From positions 1-34,399 of IMG/VR virus record IMGVR_UViG_3300005613_000225: DNA of 34,399 nucleotides; one strand, given 5' to 3'. This document shows, piece after piece, positions 1-27,773 of this stretch. This DNA comes from a virus. Position 1 is the stretch's first letter. The number at the start of each line of letters is the position of its first letter. The position numbers were made by a program, and so were the translations under genes. The notes beneath the pieces are model-generated. The model was not told where the DNA came from. It ran no database searches and saw only the letters and a program-made list of their open reading frames with translations.

Positions 1-162
1 TACCTTCCTGAACAACCCAAAGACTTGAGTTGAATTCAAATCTTCAGCAGGAACTTCAAAAGTAAAGTGCTCCTCTGGAAGTGAATCAGTCTCATAAGAA
101 CTGTAAGAATTCAGAGTGTATTTGGAATCAAATTTGACTGTGAGTTTTGCTTCGTAAGTCAT
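1..162 (-). CDS. Hypothetical protein, 5' part only (cut by window edge)
   Basis: An open frame begins with ATG at 162 and runs off the left edge after 54 codons, so only the N-terminus (MTYEAKLTVKFD...) is visible. It is hydrophilic and acidic, with no signal peptide or membrane segment, and I do not recognise a family. It is the first gene after the terminator at 195-218. A TTGACT-17-TATAGT promoter overlapping that terminator probably drives it. No clear Shine-Dalgarno sequence precedes the ATG. The compact protein-like composition and its position behind promoter signals support a real gene; its function is unknown. Confidence 0.65.
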   Translation of the reverse strand, partial: MTYEAKLTVKFDSKYTLNSYSSYETDSLPEEHFTFEVPAEDLNSTQVFGLFRKV

Positions 163-1834: not shown

Positions 1835-2089
1835 TTATGTGCCAGTTTTTGAATTGGCCTTCTTACGGACCTTTTTCTTTGGTTTTTCTTCAGGTTTGAG
1901 TGATGGATACTTGTATCGAACATCAATCTTCAAACGGGGTTTTTTAATCTTATCATATTGTTTTTGCATGTGCTCATAACACATGAAATATGCAATTTTT
2001 TTTGCCTTTCCATCCACCCATTCCATGCGAACGGGAAACATATCATATGGAAAGAGTTTGTCAAGTTCTTCTTTTGAAAGTCGGGGCAT
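1835..2089 (-). CDS. Small basic hypothetical protein (84 aa)
   Basis: This 84-aa protein has a folded-looking N-terminal part (PRLSKEELDKLFPYDMFPVR) and a strongly basic C-terminal tail of Lys, Pro and Arg (residues 66-80). The tail would suit nucleic-acid or membrane binding. Its ATG overlaps the stop of the oxygenase gene upstream as TAATG. Its 3' end carries one copy of the 24-bp repeat also found at 219-242. No family recognised. Confidence 0.7.
   Translation of the reverse strand: MPRLSKEELDKLFPYDMFPVRMEWVDGKAKKIAYFMCYEHMQKQYDKIKKPRLKIDVRYKYPSLKPEEKPKKKVRKKANSKTGT
1836..1859. repeat. 24-bp repeat copy 2, at the 3' end of the small basic gene
   Basis: It differs from 219-242 at only two of 24 positions, lies in the same orientation, and again spans the end of a minus-strand gene. 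The internal inverted repeat is less perfect than in copy 1. Confidence 0.6.
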
Positions 2090-2754
2090 TACAAATACTT
2101 TCTGGCAATTTTGTTACATTTTTCACGAAAGTGAGAATGTAAGGACGTTGAAAATTTGGAAAGATTCATATGATCAGTTCCATTATCGTGTCTTGCTGTC
2201 ATCATATCATAATACCTCCACCTACGCAAGTCTTCCATATCCGGAATGTATGAAGTTGTCCAGAAGACAATCACATCACGATCACCATAAGTAACATCGT
2301 TTACGCAATGTGGGGTTCCAGTTTCGTAGGTGATTCCATATCCAGGATCAAGTTTAAATTTTTTTTCTTCACAATTCAACCACAAAACTAACTCTCCACC
2401 ATGATATGAGTTTGGAGGGTTTAAAAAAACTGTTGTGCTGAAATGTCCACAATTAATGTGGTCGAAGTGTGGTCGATAATAACCGCCTTTTGGTGTCTTA
2501 GTTCCCATTGGCACTGAACTATGTTTAGCATAGGTAAAGTTCAAAAACTCTAAGTTATTATCTAATCCATTGAAAACAATTGGGTGATCTAAATTACATT
2601 GAAAATTTTTTTTGACTAAACTTAAATCCTTATCTGGAAATTTTTGAGATTTTGTTAGAGATTGAAGTCCATTGTGCCACTCCGATTCGCCCATAATTTT
2701 TTGGATGGACCTTAATTGATCATAATTAAAAAATTTAGATATCAAATAATTCAT
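2089..2754 (-). CDS. 2-oxoglutarate/Fe(II)-dependent oxygenase (prolyl-hydroxylase-like)
   Basis: A 221-aa cupin-fold dioxygenase. The iron ligands are visible as H96-x-D98 (in YYRPHFDHI) and H149 (in TGTPHCVND), with R159 placed to bind 2-oxoglutarate. GGELVLW (119-125) is the usual strand between them. Length and motif order fit PKHD-type hydroxylases, which oxidise protein side chains or nucleobases using O2 and 2-oxoglutarate. Marine cyanophages commonly carry several such genes. It is overlapped by TAATG at both ends: with the small His-tailed membrane gene upstream and the basic protein downstream. The substrate cannot be told from sequence. Confidence 0.85.
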   Translation of the reverse strand: MNYLISKFFNYDQLRSIQKIMGESEWHNGLQSLTKSQKFPDKDLSLVKKNFQCNLDHPIVFNGLDNNLEFLNFTYAKHSSVPMGTKTPKGGYYRPHFDHINCGHFSTTVFLNPPNSYHGGELVLWLNCEEKKFKLDPGYGITYETGTPHCVNDVTYGDRDVIVFWTTSYIPDMEDLRRWRYYDMMTARHDNGTDHMNLSKFSTSLHSHFREKCNKIARKYL

Positions 2755-2888
2755 TAGTGGATATGAACAATACCATTTTCATGAACGTGAGGAATTATTG
2801 GATTATATAAATGCGTCTGACCATGTTGAATTCCGGCACCCAATAATCCAAAAAAGATGAGAATGGGAACATATTTTAAAAATTTCAT
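2754..2888 (-). CDS. Small single-span membrane protein with His-rich tail (44 aa)
   Basis: The protein starts MKFLKYVPILIFFGLLGAG, a basic start followed by one hydrophobic helix (residues 4-20). A polar tail follows with seven histidines, including HVH and a terminal HIH. It shares its layout (LKY, span, P-x-IP, HxH end) with the 42-aa protein at 1114-1242. Its stop overlaps the oxygenase ATG as TAATG, and a CTAAATA motif lies 22 nt upstream. An Fe(II)- or other metal-binding role next to Fe(II) oxygenases is possible but is only inference. Confidence 0.75.
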   Translation of the reverse strand: MKFLKYVPILIFFGLLGAGIQHGQTHLYNPIIPHVHENGIVHIH

Positions 2889-2910
2889 GAGTCTTTTGAA
2901 AAGATCGATT

Positions 2911-2917
2911 TATTTAG
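2911..2917 (-). promoter_or_regulatory. CTAAATA late-promoter-like motif
   Basis: Minus-strand CTAAATA ends 22 nt before the ATG at 2888 and uses the TAA stop of the upstream oxygenase. It resembles T4 late TATAAATA. Alone it could be chance in AT-rich DNA; the repeated spacing at other genes gives it some weight. Confidence 0.3.
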
Positions 2918-3522
2918 TCAAGATATATTGAAGCAGCAGAATGAACCCATCCTGTAACAATGTATTTTGCATTTGATTTGGGTGGATATCCACGATGAAC
3001 ATAAGTCCATGTTGCGGGAAATATAATCATTTTTCCCATTTCAGGTTGAATCCGAGTCCCATCAATAAATTCTGTATATCCATCCTCAAAAACATCATTC
3101 AAATACCAAATAAAGGTCAAAAATCTTGGAGCTTTTTCTTCATTCACACAACTAAAATCACTATGCCAAGTATAAAATTCACCAGGCAAAGTCCTCTGCA
3201 TTTGATAACCATTGTCTTGAAATCGATGAGACACTGTTTCTAATTGTGCCCAATCGTATTTTTCAACATACTTGTGCAAATTTTTATTTAAAGACTTGTA
3301 GAATATATCATCAATTTCCTTCCAATCATCATAGTCAGAAAATGTGAGATCTGTAGATTGTTTAATTCTGGGAATGTATCCAGATCCAACTATTCCATCA
3401 TAAGTTCTTTTATCATTTTCAAATTTTTCAATACATTTCTTACAAAATTCCTCTGATAGTTCGTTTGAAATGATTTCAATAAGATCACTAAATTTTTCAA
3501 ACTTATGTTTATGATTTGTCAT
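2914..3522 (-). CDS. 2-oxoglutarate/Fe(II)-dependent oxygenase
   Basis: A 202-aa protein with the double-stranded beta-helix signature. Iron ligands are H120-x-D122 (FYTWHSDF) and H176 (TYVHRGYPP). The 2-oxoglutarate contact is probably K186 in AKYIVTGW, and FPATWTYVH (168-176) is typical of the 2OG-FeII_Oxy_3 group. It is distinct in sequence from the second oxygenase downstream, so the operon encodes two different enzymes rather than a recent duplication. Between them lies only the 44-aa membrane peptide. Substrate unknown. Confidence 0.85.
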   Translation of the reverse strand: MTNHKHKFEKFSDLIEIISNELSEEFCKKCIEKFENDKRTYDGIVGSGYIPRIKQSTDLTFSDYDDWKEIDDIFYKSLNKNLHKYVEKYDWAQLETVSHRFQDNGYQMQRTLPGEFYTWHSDFSCVNEEKAPRFLTFIWYLNDVFEDGYTEFIDGTRIQPEMGKMIIFPATWTYVHRGYPPKSNAKYIVTGWVHSAASIYLD

Positions 3523-15654: not shown

Positions 15655-15670
15655 AACTGTATGATTAAGT

Positions 15671-15753
15671 GCGAGAAGGGGGACTTGAACCCCCACGTCC
15701 TAAAGGACAACAAATTTTAAGTCTGGTGCGTCTACCAATTCCGCCATACTCGC
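15671..15753 (-). tRNA. tRNA-Leu(UAA)
   Basis: An 83-nt minus-strand sequence folds as a class II tRNA. The acceptor GCGAGTA pairs with TTCTCGC with one T-T mismatch. The anticodon loop CTTAAAA gives anticodon TAA, and there is a variable arm GTCC/GGAC. The T-arm has a GGGGG stem and TTCAAGT loop. No CCA is encoded. The anticodon stem contains a weak C-T pair. It reads UUA (and perhaps UUG), a frequent codon in this AT-rich phage. It lies one base after tRNA-Ile and is probably cotranscribed from the promoter at 16212-16240. Confidence 0.9.
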
Positions 15754-15754
15754 T

Positions 15755-15829
15755 TGGTAGGACCGCCGAGAATTGAACTCGGTTCACACGCTTATAAGGC
15801 ATGGGCTTTAACCAATAAGCAACGGTCCC
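15755..15829 (-). tRNA. tRNA-Ile(UAU)
   Basis: A 75-nt minus-strand cloverleaf. The acceptor GGGACCG pairs with CGGTCCT (G-T at the first pair), the D-stem is GCTT/AAGC, and the anticodon stem is CATGC/GCGTG around loop CTTATAA (anticodon TAT). The T-stem is CCGAG/CTCGG with a TTCAATT loop, and the 3' CCA is encoded. It reads AUA, which bacteria usually decode with a lysidine-modified CAU tRNA, so the phage brings a direct decoder. It is separated from tRNA-Leu by one nucleotide. Confidence 0.9.
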
Positions 15830-23811: not shown

Positions 23812-25509
23812 TTATACCCTCAAATTATATACAGATTTTGCGAGTGGTATGAATGGATTAAGTGGATCTGATGTTGAAATCTCAGGAATCGTTGTCGGAG
23901 AAGTACTTGGAACTGGATTTTGATTTTTCTTAGTTCCTCCCAAATTAGAAAGATCAATAACTGTTGGAGATCCCTCAACTGCACCAACTTGTGACAAAAA
24001 TCTTCCTTGTTCACTTCTTGTTTCAGTTGGTTTCACAGAACTTGCATCACCTCTTAAAATATTTTTAGTCTCCTCTTCTTTCTGATAAGGAATAACTTCA
24101 AGTTTTTGTGCTTTTGGTCTCCCTTGAGTTCCCTGAGGTGTAGTAGTTGGTGCTTTTGGTTTATAGTTTACTTGCTTTTCAAGAAATCCTACGATACCTT
24201 TATTAAAATCATTAAAGATTGTTTCATCCCAACTTGGTTGCCATTGAGAATCAATTAAATCTGTAACATATTGCCCCAACTCATTTCCTAAAATTCCTCC
24301 ACCAACTGCACCAGCAACTGATAATGGGCCGCTTGCTACTCCAGAACCAATAATTGCTCCTGCAGCTGCACCAAGTCCTGAAGTTCCATATGATAAAAGT
24401 GTTTGTGGAATAATCGGCAAAATTGCTTGTGCTGGACTCTTTCCAGAATCCAATCTATTCTTTGCAGATGCTGCAAAGAGACCAAGATTTATAATTGGAA
24501 CTAAACGTCTAACAGTACCTTTCGTGAGATCACCAAGAAACCCTTTTACATTTTTAGTAATTCCGCCCAGTTTATCTAAGATATTTTTTGAACCCTTAGG
24601 AGGTATTGGTGGTTTAACTGAACCTCCAGGTGCAGCAGGAGGTCTAGGTCCAGGTCCTGGGGGTTTGCCTGCAGGTGGTTTTCCTCCAGATGTTGGTGGT
24701 TTTCCTGCAGGGGGTTTAGTTGTTGGTGGTCTTCCTGAGGGTGGTCTAGTTGTTGGTGGTTTGGGCCCTCTTTTGAATAAATTACCTAACCATTCAAATG
24801 GTTTTTTCAGTAAAAACCCAGCTAAAGATAAACCAATTTTGGCAAGAGATGATGTTAATCTAATTAAACCACCATCTAATGTAGAAAATGCAAGTATTGC
24901 GGCTCCAACACCTTTCGCAATTTCTATCTTTAATTCGTCAAATTGTTCTTTATTTCCTTCCGATTTTGCCTTGAATGCTTTAATAATTTTGTCTGTTAAC
25001 CAACCACCAAAAAGTAATCCTAGGGCAGCCTTTAATCCATTTAAAGGTCCCTGAATTGCCTTTGTAGCTTTTTGAGTTGGTGCAACAATTGCATTACTAA
25101 TTCTATTTTCTAATACAGTTTCTGCTTGTCCGAACGATTCTCTTTCGGCAAGTCTAGTTCTACGATTTTTTTCCTGTAAGATTCTTTGTTCTTCTCTCGC
25201 AGTTTCTCTAGTCAATCCACTAGAAAGTGAACCAAGACTTGTACCAATTGCAAGAATATTTCGATTAATTTCTTCCAACTGAGTTGAAAGAAAATTATAT
25301 GTCTTCTGCTGTTCTTCTTCTCTATCAGTTGTTATGTTCTGTAGGAGTCTTGAGAAAGATTTATTGACTGAAGCTACAACTCTAGACTCAATAAGTTTTT
25401 CTCTGGGTTTTAAAGCACTAACGACGGCATCTTCATCAGAAGTTGAACCACCAAAAAACCTTGATGGTTCAATTCCTCTCTTTTTGACCTTGGACTCATC
25501 AGATGCCAT
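23812..25509 (-). CDS. Probable tape-measure / hub protein (gp29-like role)
   Basis: A 565-aa protein with a helical, charged N-terminal part (residues 40-135, coiled coil). Hydrophobic helices lie at 160-172 and 200-235. A Pro/Lys/Gly linker (249-306, PPTTRPPSGRPPTTKPPAGK) and a Gly/Ala-rich hydrophobic region (about 365-415) follow. Length is close to T4 gp29 (590 aa), the tail-length ruler. Position supports the role: it directly follows the gp26-like gene and its -1-frame extension, where tape-measure genes follow G/GT-type chaperones. Sequence similarity to gp29 is not evident by eye. It overlaps the -1 frame by 11 nt. Confidence 0.6.
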   Translation of the reverse strand: MASDESKVKKRGIEPSRFFGGSTSDEDAVVSALKPREKLIESRVVASVNKSFSRLLQNITTDREEEQQKTYNFLSTQLEEINRNILAIGTSLGSLSSGLTRETAREEQRILQEKNRRTRLAERESFGQAETVLENRISNAIVAPTQKATKAIQGPLNGLKAALGLLFGGWLTDKIIKAFKAKSEGNKEQFDELKIEIAKGVGAAILAFSTLDGGLIRLTSSLAKIGLSLAGFLLKKPFEWLGNLFKRGPKPPTTRPPSGRPPTTKPPAGKPPTSGGKPPAGKPPGPGPRPPAAPGGSVKPPIPPKGSKNILDKLGGITKNVKGFLGDLTKGTVRRLVPIINLGLFAASAKNRLDSGKSPAQAILPIIPQTLLSYGTSGLGAAAGAIIGSGVASGPLSVAGAVGGGILGNELGQYVTDLIDSQWQPSWDETIFNDFNKGIVGFLEKQVNYKPKAPTTTPQGTQGRPKAQKLEVIPYQKEEETKNILRGDASSVKPTETRSEQGRFLSQVGAVEGSPTVIDLSNLGGTKKNQNPVPSTSPTTIPEISTSDPLNPFIPLAKSVYNLRV

Positions 25510-25687
25510 TTGCTTGTTTATGCTTTAGTTCTTCTTCCTCTAAGTATGCTTGGAGAAGAGAAACATATACTTCCCTTTCCCACGGCATCATATCTTCTAA
25601 CTCCGTCAAACTATATTTATGGTGCTGCATTAAAGCAAAATTAGTTTGATAATATGAAGTTAGAGATTCATGTGCCAGGGCTATGCG
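25499..25687 (-). CDS. -1-frame extension of gene 26, tail-assembly chaperone C-terminal part (GT-like)
   Basis: A 62-codon open frame runs from the slippery site to TGA at 25501-25499. It begins RIALAHESLTSYYQTNFALM, continues HHKYSLTELEDMMPWEREVY and ends LKHKQANGI. It is clearly protein-like: charged, helical, with a PWERE motif. The frame stays open a few codons upstream of the heptamer, but no ATG, GTG or TTG precedes codon 20; the first ATG is internal (25630) and would remove a third of it. A -1 shift at 25693-25687 would join it to gp26 residue 237, giving a 299-aa fusion. It overlaps the tape-measure gene start by 11 nt. Alternatives are CTG initiation at 25678, or a truncated 43-aa product. 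Confidence 0.7.
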   Translation of the reverse strand, partial: RIALAHESLTSYYQTNFALMQHHKYSLTELEDMMPWEREVYVSLLQAYLEEEELKHKQANGI

Positions 25688-26397
25688 AAAAAAGACGCTA
25701 AACCCTCCAGAACGATCTCATTTTCCACACCAGTCTTTGGATTTTTAACCTTCAATTCATGTTTGAGTCTGGGCATTGTTAAAAAGAATTTCTCGACATT
25801 CGCAAACTGTGCGGATGTAAGATTGCCCACAAACTCATCCAATTCTTTCTTTGTACAATCAGAAGAATTCCAAGACTCTTCTTCAGAATAAACTTGTTCA
25901 ATACAACTTGAAATAATTTCAAATCCCTGATCAATATTCACATCATCATTATTGAAGTTTGTCTTTACAAACTCATTTAGTGATGGGTACTTCATTCTGA
26001 GAGTTAGTTCATCATCAAGTTTAATATCTCTAGTATGCTCTGGATCCATCTGAACTTGAATATCATCAATATTAATCTGAACATTCACTTCAGTTTCATT
26101 ATCATCAGGGCAAGTCACAATAACATCAATCAATTCACCAACAGACTTACCACGAACATTCAAAAAGAGATACTCAATATCAAATGTGGAAAGATCATCA
26201 ACTTTAATTCCTCTTGTTAGAATACATGCAGAAAGAACATTCTTAATAGCTTCAGTAATCTGCTTCATGTTTTCACTTTCAAGAGCGAGAATCAAGATCT
26301 TTTCTTCTCGTACTAGAAATGGACGATATTTGATTTTCTTTTTAATAGATGGCAACTCAAGTTCATATACTGGAGTTGTAGACTTTGGTAAAGGCAT
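25681..26397 (-). CDS. 26: gp26-like baseplate hub / tail-assembly chaperone
   Basis: A 238-aa protein resembling the T4 gp26 baseplate family (T4_baseplate). Visible features are YELELPSIKKKIKYRPFLVR then EEKILILALES (residues 11-41), a conserved ILTRGIKVDDLSTFDIEYLF segment (59-78), and a charged C-terminal half. It is preceded by the TAATAAATA late motif and followed by the tape-measure gene. Its last codons (TCT TTT TTC GCA TAG) contain a -1 slippery heptamer. That suggests two products: gp26 alone and a gp26 fusion with the 62-residue extension, as for lambda gpG and gpGT. Confidence 0.8.
   Translation of the reverse strand: MPLPKSTTPVYELELPSIKKKIKYRPFLVREEKILILALESENMKQITEAIKNVLSACILTRGIKVDDLSTFDIEYLFLNVRGKSVGELIDVIVTCPDDNETEVNVQINIDDIQVQMDPEHTRDIKLDDELTLRMKYPSLNEFVKTNFNNDDVNIDQGFEIISSCIEQVYSEEESWNSSDCTKKELDEFVGNLTSAQFANVEKFFLTMPRLKHELKVKNPKTGVENEIVLEGLASFFA
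25687..25708 (-). promoter_or_regulatory. Putative programmed -1 ribosomal frameshift site
   Basis: Minus strand: GGAGGG (25708-25703), a 9-nt spacer, then T_TTT_TTC (25693-25687) in frame as X_XXY_YYZ, two codons before the TAG stop of gene 26. An upstream Shine-Dalgarno-like stimulator at about 10 nt is the arrangement known from E. coli dnaX. No start codon lies where GGAGGG could serve ordinary initiation. Downstream ATGAA/TTCAT could form a small weak hairpin. Confidence 0.7.
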
Positions 26398-27335: not shown

Positions 27336-27773
27336 ATGTCATATAAGGGAAAGTTCCGCCCCTCAAATGTAAAAAAATATAGAGGAGACCCAACTAACAT
27401 TATTTATAGGTCTCTATGGGAATTGCGCTTTATGAAATACTGTGACTCAAATGAAAATATTCTTGAGTGGGGAAGTGAAGAATTTTGGATTCCATATCTT
27501 TCACCTTTAGATGCTAGAGTTCATCGATACTTTCCAGATTTTTATATCAAAGTTCGTGAAAAAACTGGTGACATTAAAAAGTATGTGATTGAAATTAAAC
27601 CCAAAAAACAATGCACTGAACCAAAAGTCCAATCAAAGAAGACCAAAAAGTACATTTATGAAGTCACAGAGTATGCTAAAAATCAAGCAAAGTGGAAGGC
27701 TGCCAGAGAGTTCTGTGAAGATCGTAGATGGGAGTTCAAAGTTCTTACTGAAGATGATCTTGGGATAAAATAA
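27336..27773 (+). CDS. 4: gp4-like head completion protein (TnsA/PD-(D/E)XK fold)
   Basis: A 145-aa protein matching T4 gp4 (head completion). Core residues are E29 (YRSLWELRFM), D68 (RYFPDFYI), and E86-x-K88 (YVIEIKPKK). These are the PD-(D/E)XK pattern of TnsA-like endonucleases. It probably acts at the portal, trimming or sealing packaged DNA before tail joining. It heads the only plus-strand operon of the window. Its TAA stop overlaps the next ATG as TAATG. Confidence 0.85.
   Translation: MSYKGKFRPSNVKKYRGDPTNIIYRSLWELRFMKYCDSNENILEWGSEEFWIPYLSPLDARVHRYFPDFYIKVREKTGDIKKYVIEIKPKKQCTEPKVQSKKTKKYIYEVTEYAKNQAKWKAAREFCEDRRWEFKVLTEDDLGIK

Follow-up and report, generated by a model that had tools for sequence, protein, structure and literature searches.

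The Locus

The DNA considered here is IMG/VR virus record IMGVR_UViG_3300005613_000225, whose full 34,399 nucleotides (nt) are called the window, and the subject is the end of its gp26 gene, where a programmed -1 frameshift probably fuses gp26 to a gp51-type extension. All features of the locus lie on the minus strand. The gp26 open reading frame (ORF; positions 25681-26397) encodes 238 amino acids (aa) and ends at a TAG stop codon (25683-25681). It matches the family PF12322 T4_baseplate (E-value 5.8e-74) and phrog_150, baseplate hub (6.5e-80), and would encode the short form of a tail assembly chaperone, analogous to TAC-N. Its last codons read GCG TCT TTT TTC GCA TAG and contain, in the gp26 frame, the slippery heptamer T_TTT_TTC (25687-25693), after which only GCA precedes the stop. 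The motif GGAGGG, a putative internal Shine-Dalgarno (SD)-like stimulator, is located 9 nt before the heptamer (25703-25708).

In the -1 frame, translation could continue from CGC at 25687 to TGA at 25501-25499, giving an extension of 62 sense codons (25499-25687) that would constitute a TAC-C or gp51-type domain. The predicted fusion product comprises 237 + 62 = 299 aa. There is no start codon in codons 1-19 of this frame; the first ATG, GTG or TTG is an ATG at 25630, codon 20, from which an ORF of 43 aa could be read (25499-25630). A piece like this ORF is annotated in the nearest isolates, Synechococcus phage S-T4, the nearest named isolate found (gp26 81.9% and extension 93.5% identical), and Sf-CH8, but it is probably not the real product in such records nor in the window. 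The extension overlaps by 11 nt with the next ORF (25509-23812), which encodes 565 aa and probably represents the tape measure protein. The end of gp26, the frame of the heptamer, the spacing of GGAGGG, the 62 open codons and the lack of a start in the first 19 had all been noted in a sequence-only reading of the window, and direct inspection of the letters bears them out.

Conservation of the Slippery Heptamer

Relatives were collected as gp26 loci from IMG/VR and from annotated phage records. Of 341 matching loci, 11 were dropped since the gene end was missing or cut, and the remaining 330 yielded 250 distinct sequences, among them those of the window and of T4. Most of these loci are on marine, cyanophage-like contigs, which means that the sampling is uneven and that the sequences are related. 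An in-frame X_XXY_YYZ heptamer within 45 nt of the stop was found in 247 of the 250 gp26 ends, and an open -1 extension in 246. The heptamer nearest the stop is always T_TTT_TTN. At position -10 relative to the stop, it reads TTTTTTC in 168 sequences and TTTTTTA, TTTTTTT or TTTTTTG in 35 more. In some relatives, the second codon of the heptamer is TTA or TTG, which replaces Phe by Leu, and the slippery pattern is still kept. The heptamer is also present in distant phages, i.e., Caulobacter phage Cr30, Pseudomonas phages pf16 and Astolliot, Vibrio phage CZ01, Aeromonas phage avDM12, Citrobacter phage Ci1, Stenotrophomonas phage Ps15 and Agrobacterium phage OLIVR5. A scan with the gp26 of Cr30 as the query returned two loci only.

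A chance origin of the heptamer is ruled out by comparing the 247 of 250 gp26 ends with the background in the gp26 body, where 326 X_XXY_YYZ heptamers occur in 55,943 codons, and by a control on the dipeptides FF and FL, which elsewhere in gp26 are encoded in a slippery manner in only 5 of 141 cases. This control was done on 47 cluster representatives, obtained at 75% nucleotide identity from the 246 sequences in which both the heptamer and the open extension are present; the presence of the heptamer in all 47 clusters is, therefore, by construction. The alignment of gp26 ends that had been proposed as a check of the sequence-only reading thus revealed a conserved heptamer, a conserved peak of anti-SD pairing (see below) and a conserved open -1 frame among the relatives.

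Two variations on this arrangement were seen. In 19 of the 250 sequences (e.g., L329), the heptamer is at -31, and gp26 goes on for seven codons beyond the shift site. In Vibrio phages K483 and Kuja (L332 and L340), no stop interrupts the -1 frame for 176 and 191 nt, respectively, beyond the end of gp26, and another slippery site is possibly used.

The Extension as Coding Sequence

The extension of the window matches phrog_634, baseplate hub assembly catalyst (1.1e-28), and, more weakly, the C-terminal end of phrog_150 (1.2e-5). The latter match suggested that phages may exist with gp26 and the extension in one frame; none turned up, and no dedicated search was made for them.

In 78 of the 246 sequences with an open extension, the window among them, no ATG, GTG or TTG is present before position +30. 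Selection on the 12 codons just past the stop was evaluated in 38 of these 78 sequences, namely those in which the heptamer is at -10 and the stretch up to +41 is free of start codons. The ratio of nonsynonymous to synonymous polymorphism (pN/pS) was 0.37 in the -1 frame vs. 1.12 and 1.27 in the other two frames. In the window and its four nearest relatives (L001, L003, S-T4 and Sf-CH8), the ratio in the -1 frame was 0.07, a value based on ten pairs among five close relatives. A first run, which included some sequences with an internal start, had given 0.37 for 41 sequences and 0.25 for the ten-sequence clade of the window. Purifying selection thus acts on the extension before the first possible start codon, and it does so in no frame other than -1. 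These codons are hence read as protein, a finding that frameshifting explains but the synthesis of a free gp51 does not.

Putative Stimulatory Elements

Pairing with the anti-SD sequence peaks 6-16 nt before the heptamer, with a mean of -6.2 kcal/mol over the 47 clusters, as compared to an average of -0.5 kcal/mol over columns -150 to -31 and -3.6 kcal/mol at the next highest peak. When the sequences were recoded synonymously, the observed mean of -6.30 kcal/mol was reached in 0 of 1000 draws, but the null itself already amounted to -5.28; part of the peak is due to the conservation of the E-G-L residues encoded here. For an SD-like element to stimulate -1 frameshifting, a spacing of 9-14 nt is given in the accessible part of PMC5009743, and the 9 nt found in the window are within this range. 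The proposal that GGAGGG acts like the stimulator of dnaX thereby gained support from both the anti-SD peak and the recoding.

A structure 3' of the heptamer is a feature of many relatives. A stretch of 60 nt with a fold z-score below -2 was found there in 25 of the 47 clusters, whereas 1-7 of 47 had one when the stretch was placed at any of eight positions lying 20 to 300 nt further upstream. Scores were also raised at offsets of +20 to +50 (10-12 of 47 below -2), where the stretches overlap the stem region. The shuffles behind these counts preserved dinucleotides; those of a further run, which likewise found no 3' structure in the window, preserved base composition alone. Pairing within the stem was assessed in the 132 of 246 relatives that have an ATG located 5 nt after the first base of the gp26 stop (ATG+5); they are related to each other and make up 11 clusters. 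Counting from the first base of the heptamer (hp), pairs between hp+12..20 and hp+34..42 form in 93% of cells, as compared to 23-58% for 13 other pairing registers tried. The ATG+5 sits in the 5' arm of this stem. The window has neither ATG+5 nor the stem.

Relation to T4 gp26 and gp51

The extension had been suggested to be perhaps the counterpart of T4 gp51. In two-sequence profile searches with filters off, the extension profile matched residues 200-245 of the 249 of T4 gp51 (2.6e-9), whilst the gp26 profile found T4 gp26 (1.2e-24) and, as a much weaker match, also the body of gp51 (1.3e-5), and the profile of the fused product covered residues 16-245 of gp51 (8.8e-13). The suggestion thus holds for the C-terminal part: the extension corresponds to roughly the last fifth of T4 gp51, and the fusion to almost the entire protein. 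In T4, the gp26 and gp51 genes are separate and on opposite strands, and no heptamer is present near the gp26 stop. It follows from these relationships that T4 itself seems to encode the short and the long form as two genes. The accessible part of PMC3037559 notes, without explanation, that the ~200 N-terminal residues of T4 gp51 are missing from the cyanophage protein, which fusion by frameshifting would explain.

Possible Chaperone Fold and Neighboring Genes

The AlphaFold2 model of gp26 has a mean predicted local distance difference test score (pLDDT) of 86.5 and a predicted template modeling score (pTM) of 0.78. With VIA-align, the best of 418 chains was the HK97 tail assembly chaperone 2ob9 (Z 7.8, root-mean-square deviation (rmsd) 3.9, 84 residues), followed by rbstp2171 (3fgx; Z 7.8, rmsd 4.1, 86 residues) and YqbN (3klu; Z 7.2, rmsd 4.1, 86 residues), although Z values under 8 can mean a common arrangement. 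The latter two are presumably prophage chaperones. All three matches are over the N-terminal ~95 residues of gp26, with the likeness to the HK97 chaperone extending over residues 1-86, and the next row dropped to Z 4.8. In a library of viral structures, most matches of the model were gp26-type "baseplate hub" proteins, with Acinetobacter phage ZZ1 contributing a "baseplate hub assembly catalyst" (E 4.6e-6). Profile searches against the sequences of solved structures gave only weak, unrelated matches for gp26 (best E 0.029) and no match for the extension. Such Z values do not prove a chaperone fold, but it is notable that the match agrees with the independent evidence for frameshifting.

The next gene had been called a probable tape measure gene, and its position fits this assignment; a profile comparison detected no homology to T4 gp29. 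No PHROG tape-measure match was found for the 565-aa ORF. In Cr30, a gene slightly further downstream, with one small ORF in between, is annotated as tail tape measure protein. On its position, and not on homology to T4 gp29, the 565-aa ORF is the probable tape measure protein. Its translation contains a proline-rich, repeat-like stretch (KPPTTRPPSGRPPTTKPPAGKPP...) at window positions 24600-24790, minus strand.

Elsewhere in the window, an Rfam search at gathering thresholds found two tRNAs and nothing else; these are adjacent genes for tRNA-Leu (taa) and tRNA-Ile (tat) at 15669-15829 on the minus strand. An NCBIfam search gave no useful match. Two neighboring genes at 2089-3522, minus strand, each match phrog_61 (2OG-Fe(II) oxygenase) and are possibly the result of a duplication. 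The gene for a head-closure protein (phrog_218; 27336-27773, plus strand) also matches PF08722, the N-terminal domain of TnsA-like endonucleases (6.1e-24).

Probable Frameshifting to a Short and a Long Chaperone

The best explanation, to which we assign a probability of about 0.92, is that this T4-like, cyanophage-type virus uses -1 frameshifting to produce its tape-measure chaperone in two lengths, gp26 and the longer gp26-51. It draws on the signal, the conservation of that signal, the coding selection on the extension and the homology of the fusion to T4 gp51, all read from the sequences; from these, we infer slippage itself, its efficiency and the chaperone role. Most ribosomes would stop at the TAG and produce the short form of 238 aa. 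A fraction would pause on the internal SD-like GGAGGG and slip by -1 on T_TTT_TTC with tRNA-Phe in both the P and A sites, thus producing the long form of 299 aa with a gp51-type C-terminal domain. By analogy with gpG and gpGT of phage lambda, the short form may coat the tape measure protein, whilst the long form may recruit tube or hub subunits. The claims that gp26 is followed by a programmed -1 frameshift and that the two products are analogues of G and GT are thus both supported at the sequence level, the former by the heptamer in 247 of 250 gp26 ends, the extension in 246 and the selection in the -1 frame.

Several observations weigh against this explanation. The heptamer is absent in three of the 250 sequences, those of T4 and Vibrio phages K483 and Kuja, and the -1 frame of one relative (L281) closes at +80. 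Conserved residues alone give a chance of a slippery site of ~0.36, and the high synonymous baseline of the SD-like element is to be read in the same way. No 3' stem-loop was detected in the window, where two fold tests gave z-scores of -0.22 and +0.8. A Foldseek search with the gp26 model against the PDB gave no match at E ≤ 0.001, which adds to the Z values under 8 mentioned above, and the 565-aa ORF has no profile match to T4 gp29. Finally, 132 of 246 relatives have the ATG+5, from which a free gp51 could be translated.

A broader proposal, for which the odds seem about even, is that a dnaX-like signal, consisting of an internal SD, T_TTT_TTN and a 3' stem-loop, drives the shift across the cyanophage-type relatives of T4, with its parts being traded in evolution. 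The annotated gp51 ATG would then be a by-product of the stem. In the nearest relatives of the window, ATG+5 and stem would both be gone, leaving the shift entirely to the assistance of the SD, and free gp51 would not be made in any of the phages concerned.

Alternative Explanations

The ATG+5 invites the explanation that reinitiation or translational coupling downstream of the gp26 stop yields gp51 as a small protein in its own right, as public records annotate it, with the heptamer being incidental. This ATG is found in 132 of 246 relatives, and the gp51 genes of P-SSM2 and S-PM2 are annotated from it. However, the window and 77 others have no start before +30, and their codons there are selected in the -1 frame. 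Furthermore, the ATG+5 is almost without an SD (4.5% of the 132 at or below -5 kcal/mol; for the starts of gp26 and of the next gene, the share is 39.6% of 225 and 28% of 218, respectively) and is buried in the stem arm, and the heptamer is kept with or without it; all 132 sequences carry it at -10. An in-frame ATG for the small ORF combined with loss of the heptamer, the case that the sequence-only reading had named as contradicting it, is therefore found for its first half only. A separate gp51 with an incidental heptamer is very improbable, and free gp51 as the main product in the clade is rejected in view of the start-less relatives, the weak SD and the selection in the -1 frame. Somewhat less improbable, but still unlikely, is the use of both routes, in which frameshifting gives the fusion and the phages with ATG+5 also make some free TAC-C. 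The co-occurrence of ATG+5 and heptamer in 132 of 246 relatives would fit this, but it is inapplicable to the window, which has no start before codon 20, and the bases of the ATG are paired in the stem, a pairing that alone could explain their conservation. The annotated start of cyanophage gp51 is probably not a start. Since gp26 and the extension were joined in 0 of 17 non-T4 annotated records examined, errors in the annotation of such gp51 genes may be widespread.

The other alternatives concern the run of Ts. T runs can cause the polymerase to slip, and the accessible part of PMC4066793 raises this for AAAAAAA and UUUUUUU; the two frames would then be joined by indels in the mRNA, and not by slipping ribosomes. 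Seven or eight Ts are present in 38 of 246 sequences, but exactly six are present in 208, with C as the next base in 183, and the SD-like element, at the spacing of a -1 stimulator (9-14 nt; PMC5009743, as far as accessible), and the 3' stems in many relatives are stimulators of ribosomes. Transcriptional slippage is hence a highly doubtful explanation of the locus. The overlap of two frames at a homopolymer could also arise when a sequencing or assembly error of 1 nt splits one gene, which had been named as a possible refutation. This chance is negligible: the arrangement is common to 246 of 250 distinct sequences, and an indel is rejected because separate contigs and complete isolate genomes share it.

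Comparison with Known Systems

The -1 frameshift in tail assembly chaperone genes was reportedly described by Xu, Hendrix and Duda in 2004. Vladimirov, Gautam and Davidson are said to have identified TAC-N and TAC-NC genes in T4-like phages in 2022 (Virology 566:9), with frameshifting reportedly being conserved in several T4-like groups and the T4 group using separate genes. The genes found here are probably the very same.

The sequence-only reading knew of no such description for T4-like phages, which proved mistaken: according to the accessible part of PMC12846349, TAC-N genes of these phages are known to carry -1 signals in the form of poly-T slippery sequences. In some T4-like phages, the short gene is accompanied by a long, fused one that is separate from it (PMC10885494, in the part accessible, citing Vladimirov et al., 2022). 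The frameshift is, therefore, known in kind and reported for relatives of T4, and the dnaX-like signal is the fresher part; what may be new here is the anatomy of this signal and the conclusion on the annotated gp51 start. An SD-like element or a stem at the gp26 site was not found in titles and abstract starts among the literature matches listed, which is weak evidence as most subscription journals are outside the coverage.

The signal in Escherichia coli dnaX, as far as described in the accessible part of PMC5009743, likewise combines an SD-like element and a slippery heptamer with a 3' stem-loop, which many of the relatives have as well. However, the heptamer is A_AAA_AAG in dnaX and T_TTT_TTC here, and the shift gives a shorter product there and a longer one here. 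The window itself lacks the 3' stem and, because it has only two of the three parts, is not filed as having a dnaX-type signal.

The likeness to gpG and gpGT of lambda consists of a short chaperone ORF with a heptamer near its end and a -1 extension, followed immediately by the presumed tape measure gene. The gp26 model also resembles the HK97 chaperone, with Z below 8. In contrast to the lambda proteins, gp26 belongs by sequence to PF12322, and an SD-like stimulator is present, with a 3' stem in many relatives. In 2016, the G/GT frameshift was regarded as a widely conserved device of long-tailed phages, from which T4 was excepted (PMC5009743, accessible part). The gp26 of the window is homologous to T4 gp26 and the fusion to gp51 over residues 16-245, whereas in T4 the two are encoded separately, on opposite strands, and the end of gp26 lacks the heptamer. 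With frameshifting at gp26, the T4-like phages that abound in the sea would join the general scheme of tape-measure chaperones, and T4, with its two separate genes, would then look the exception.

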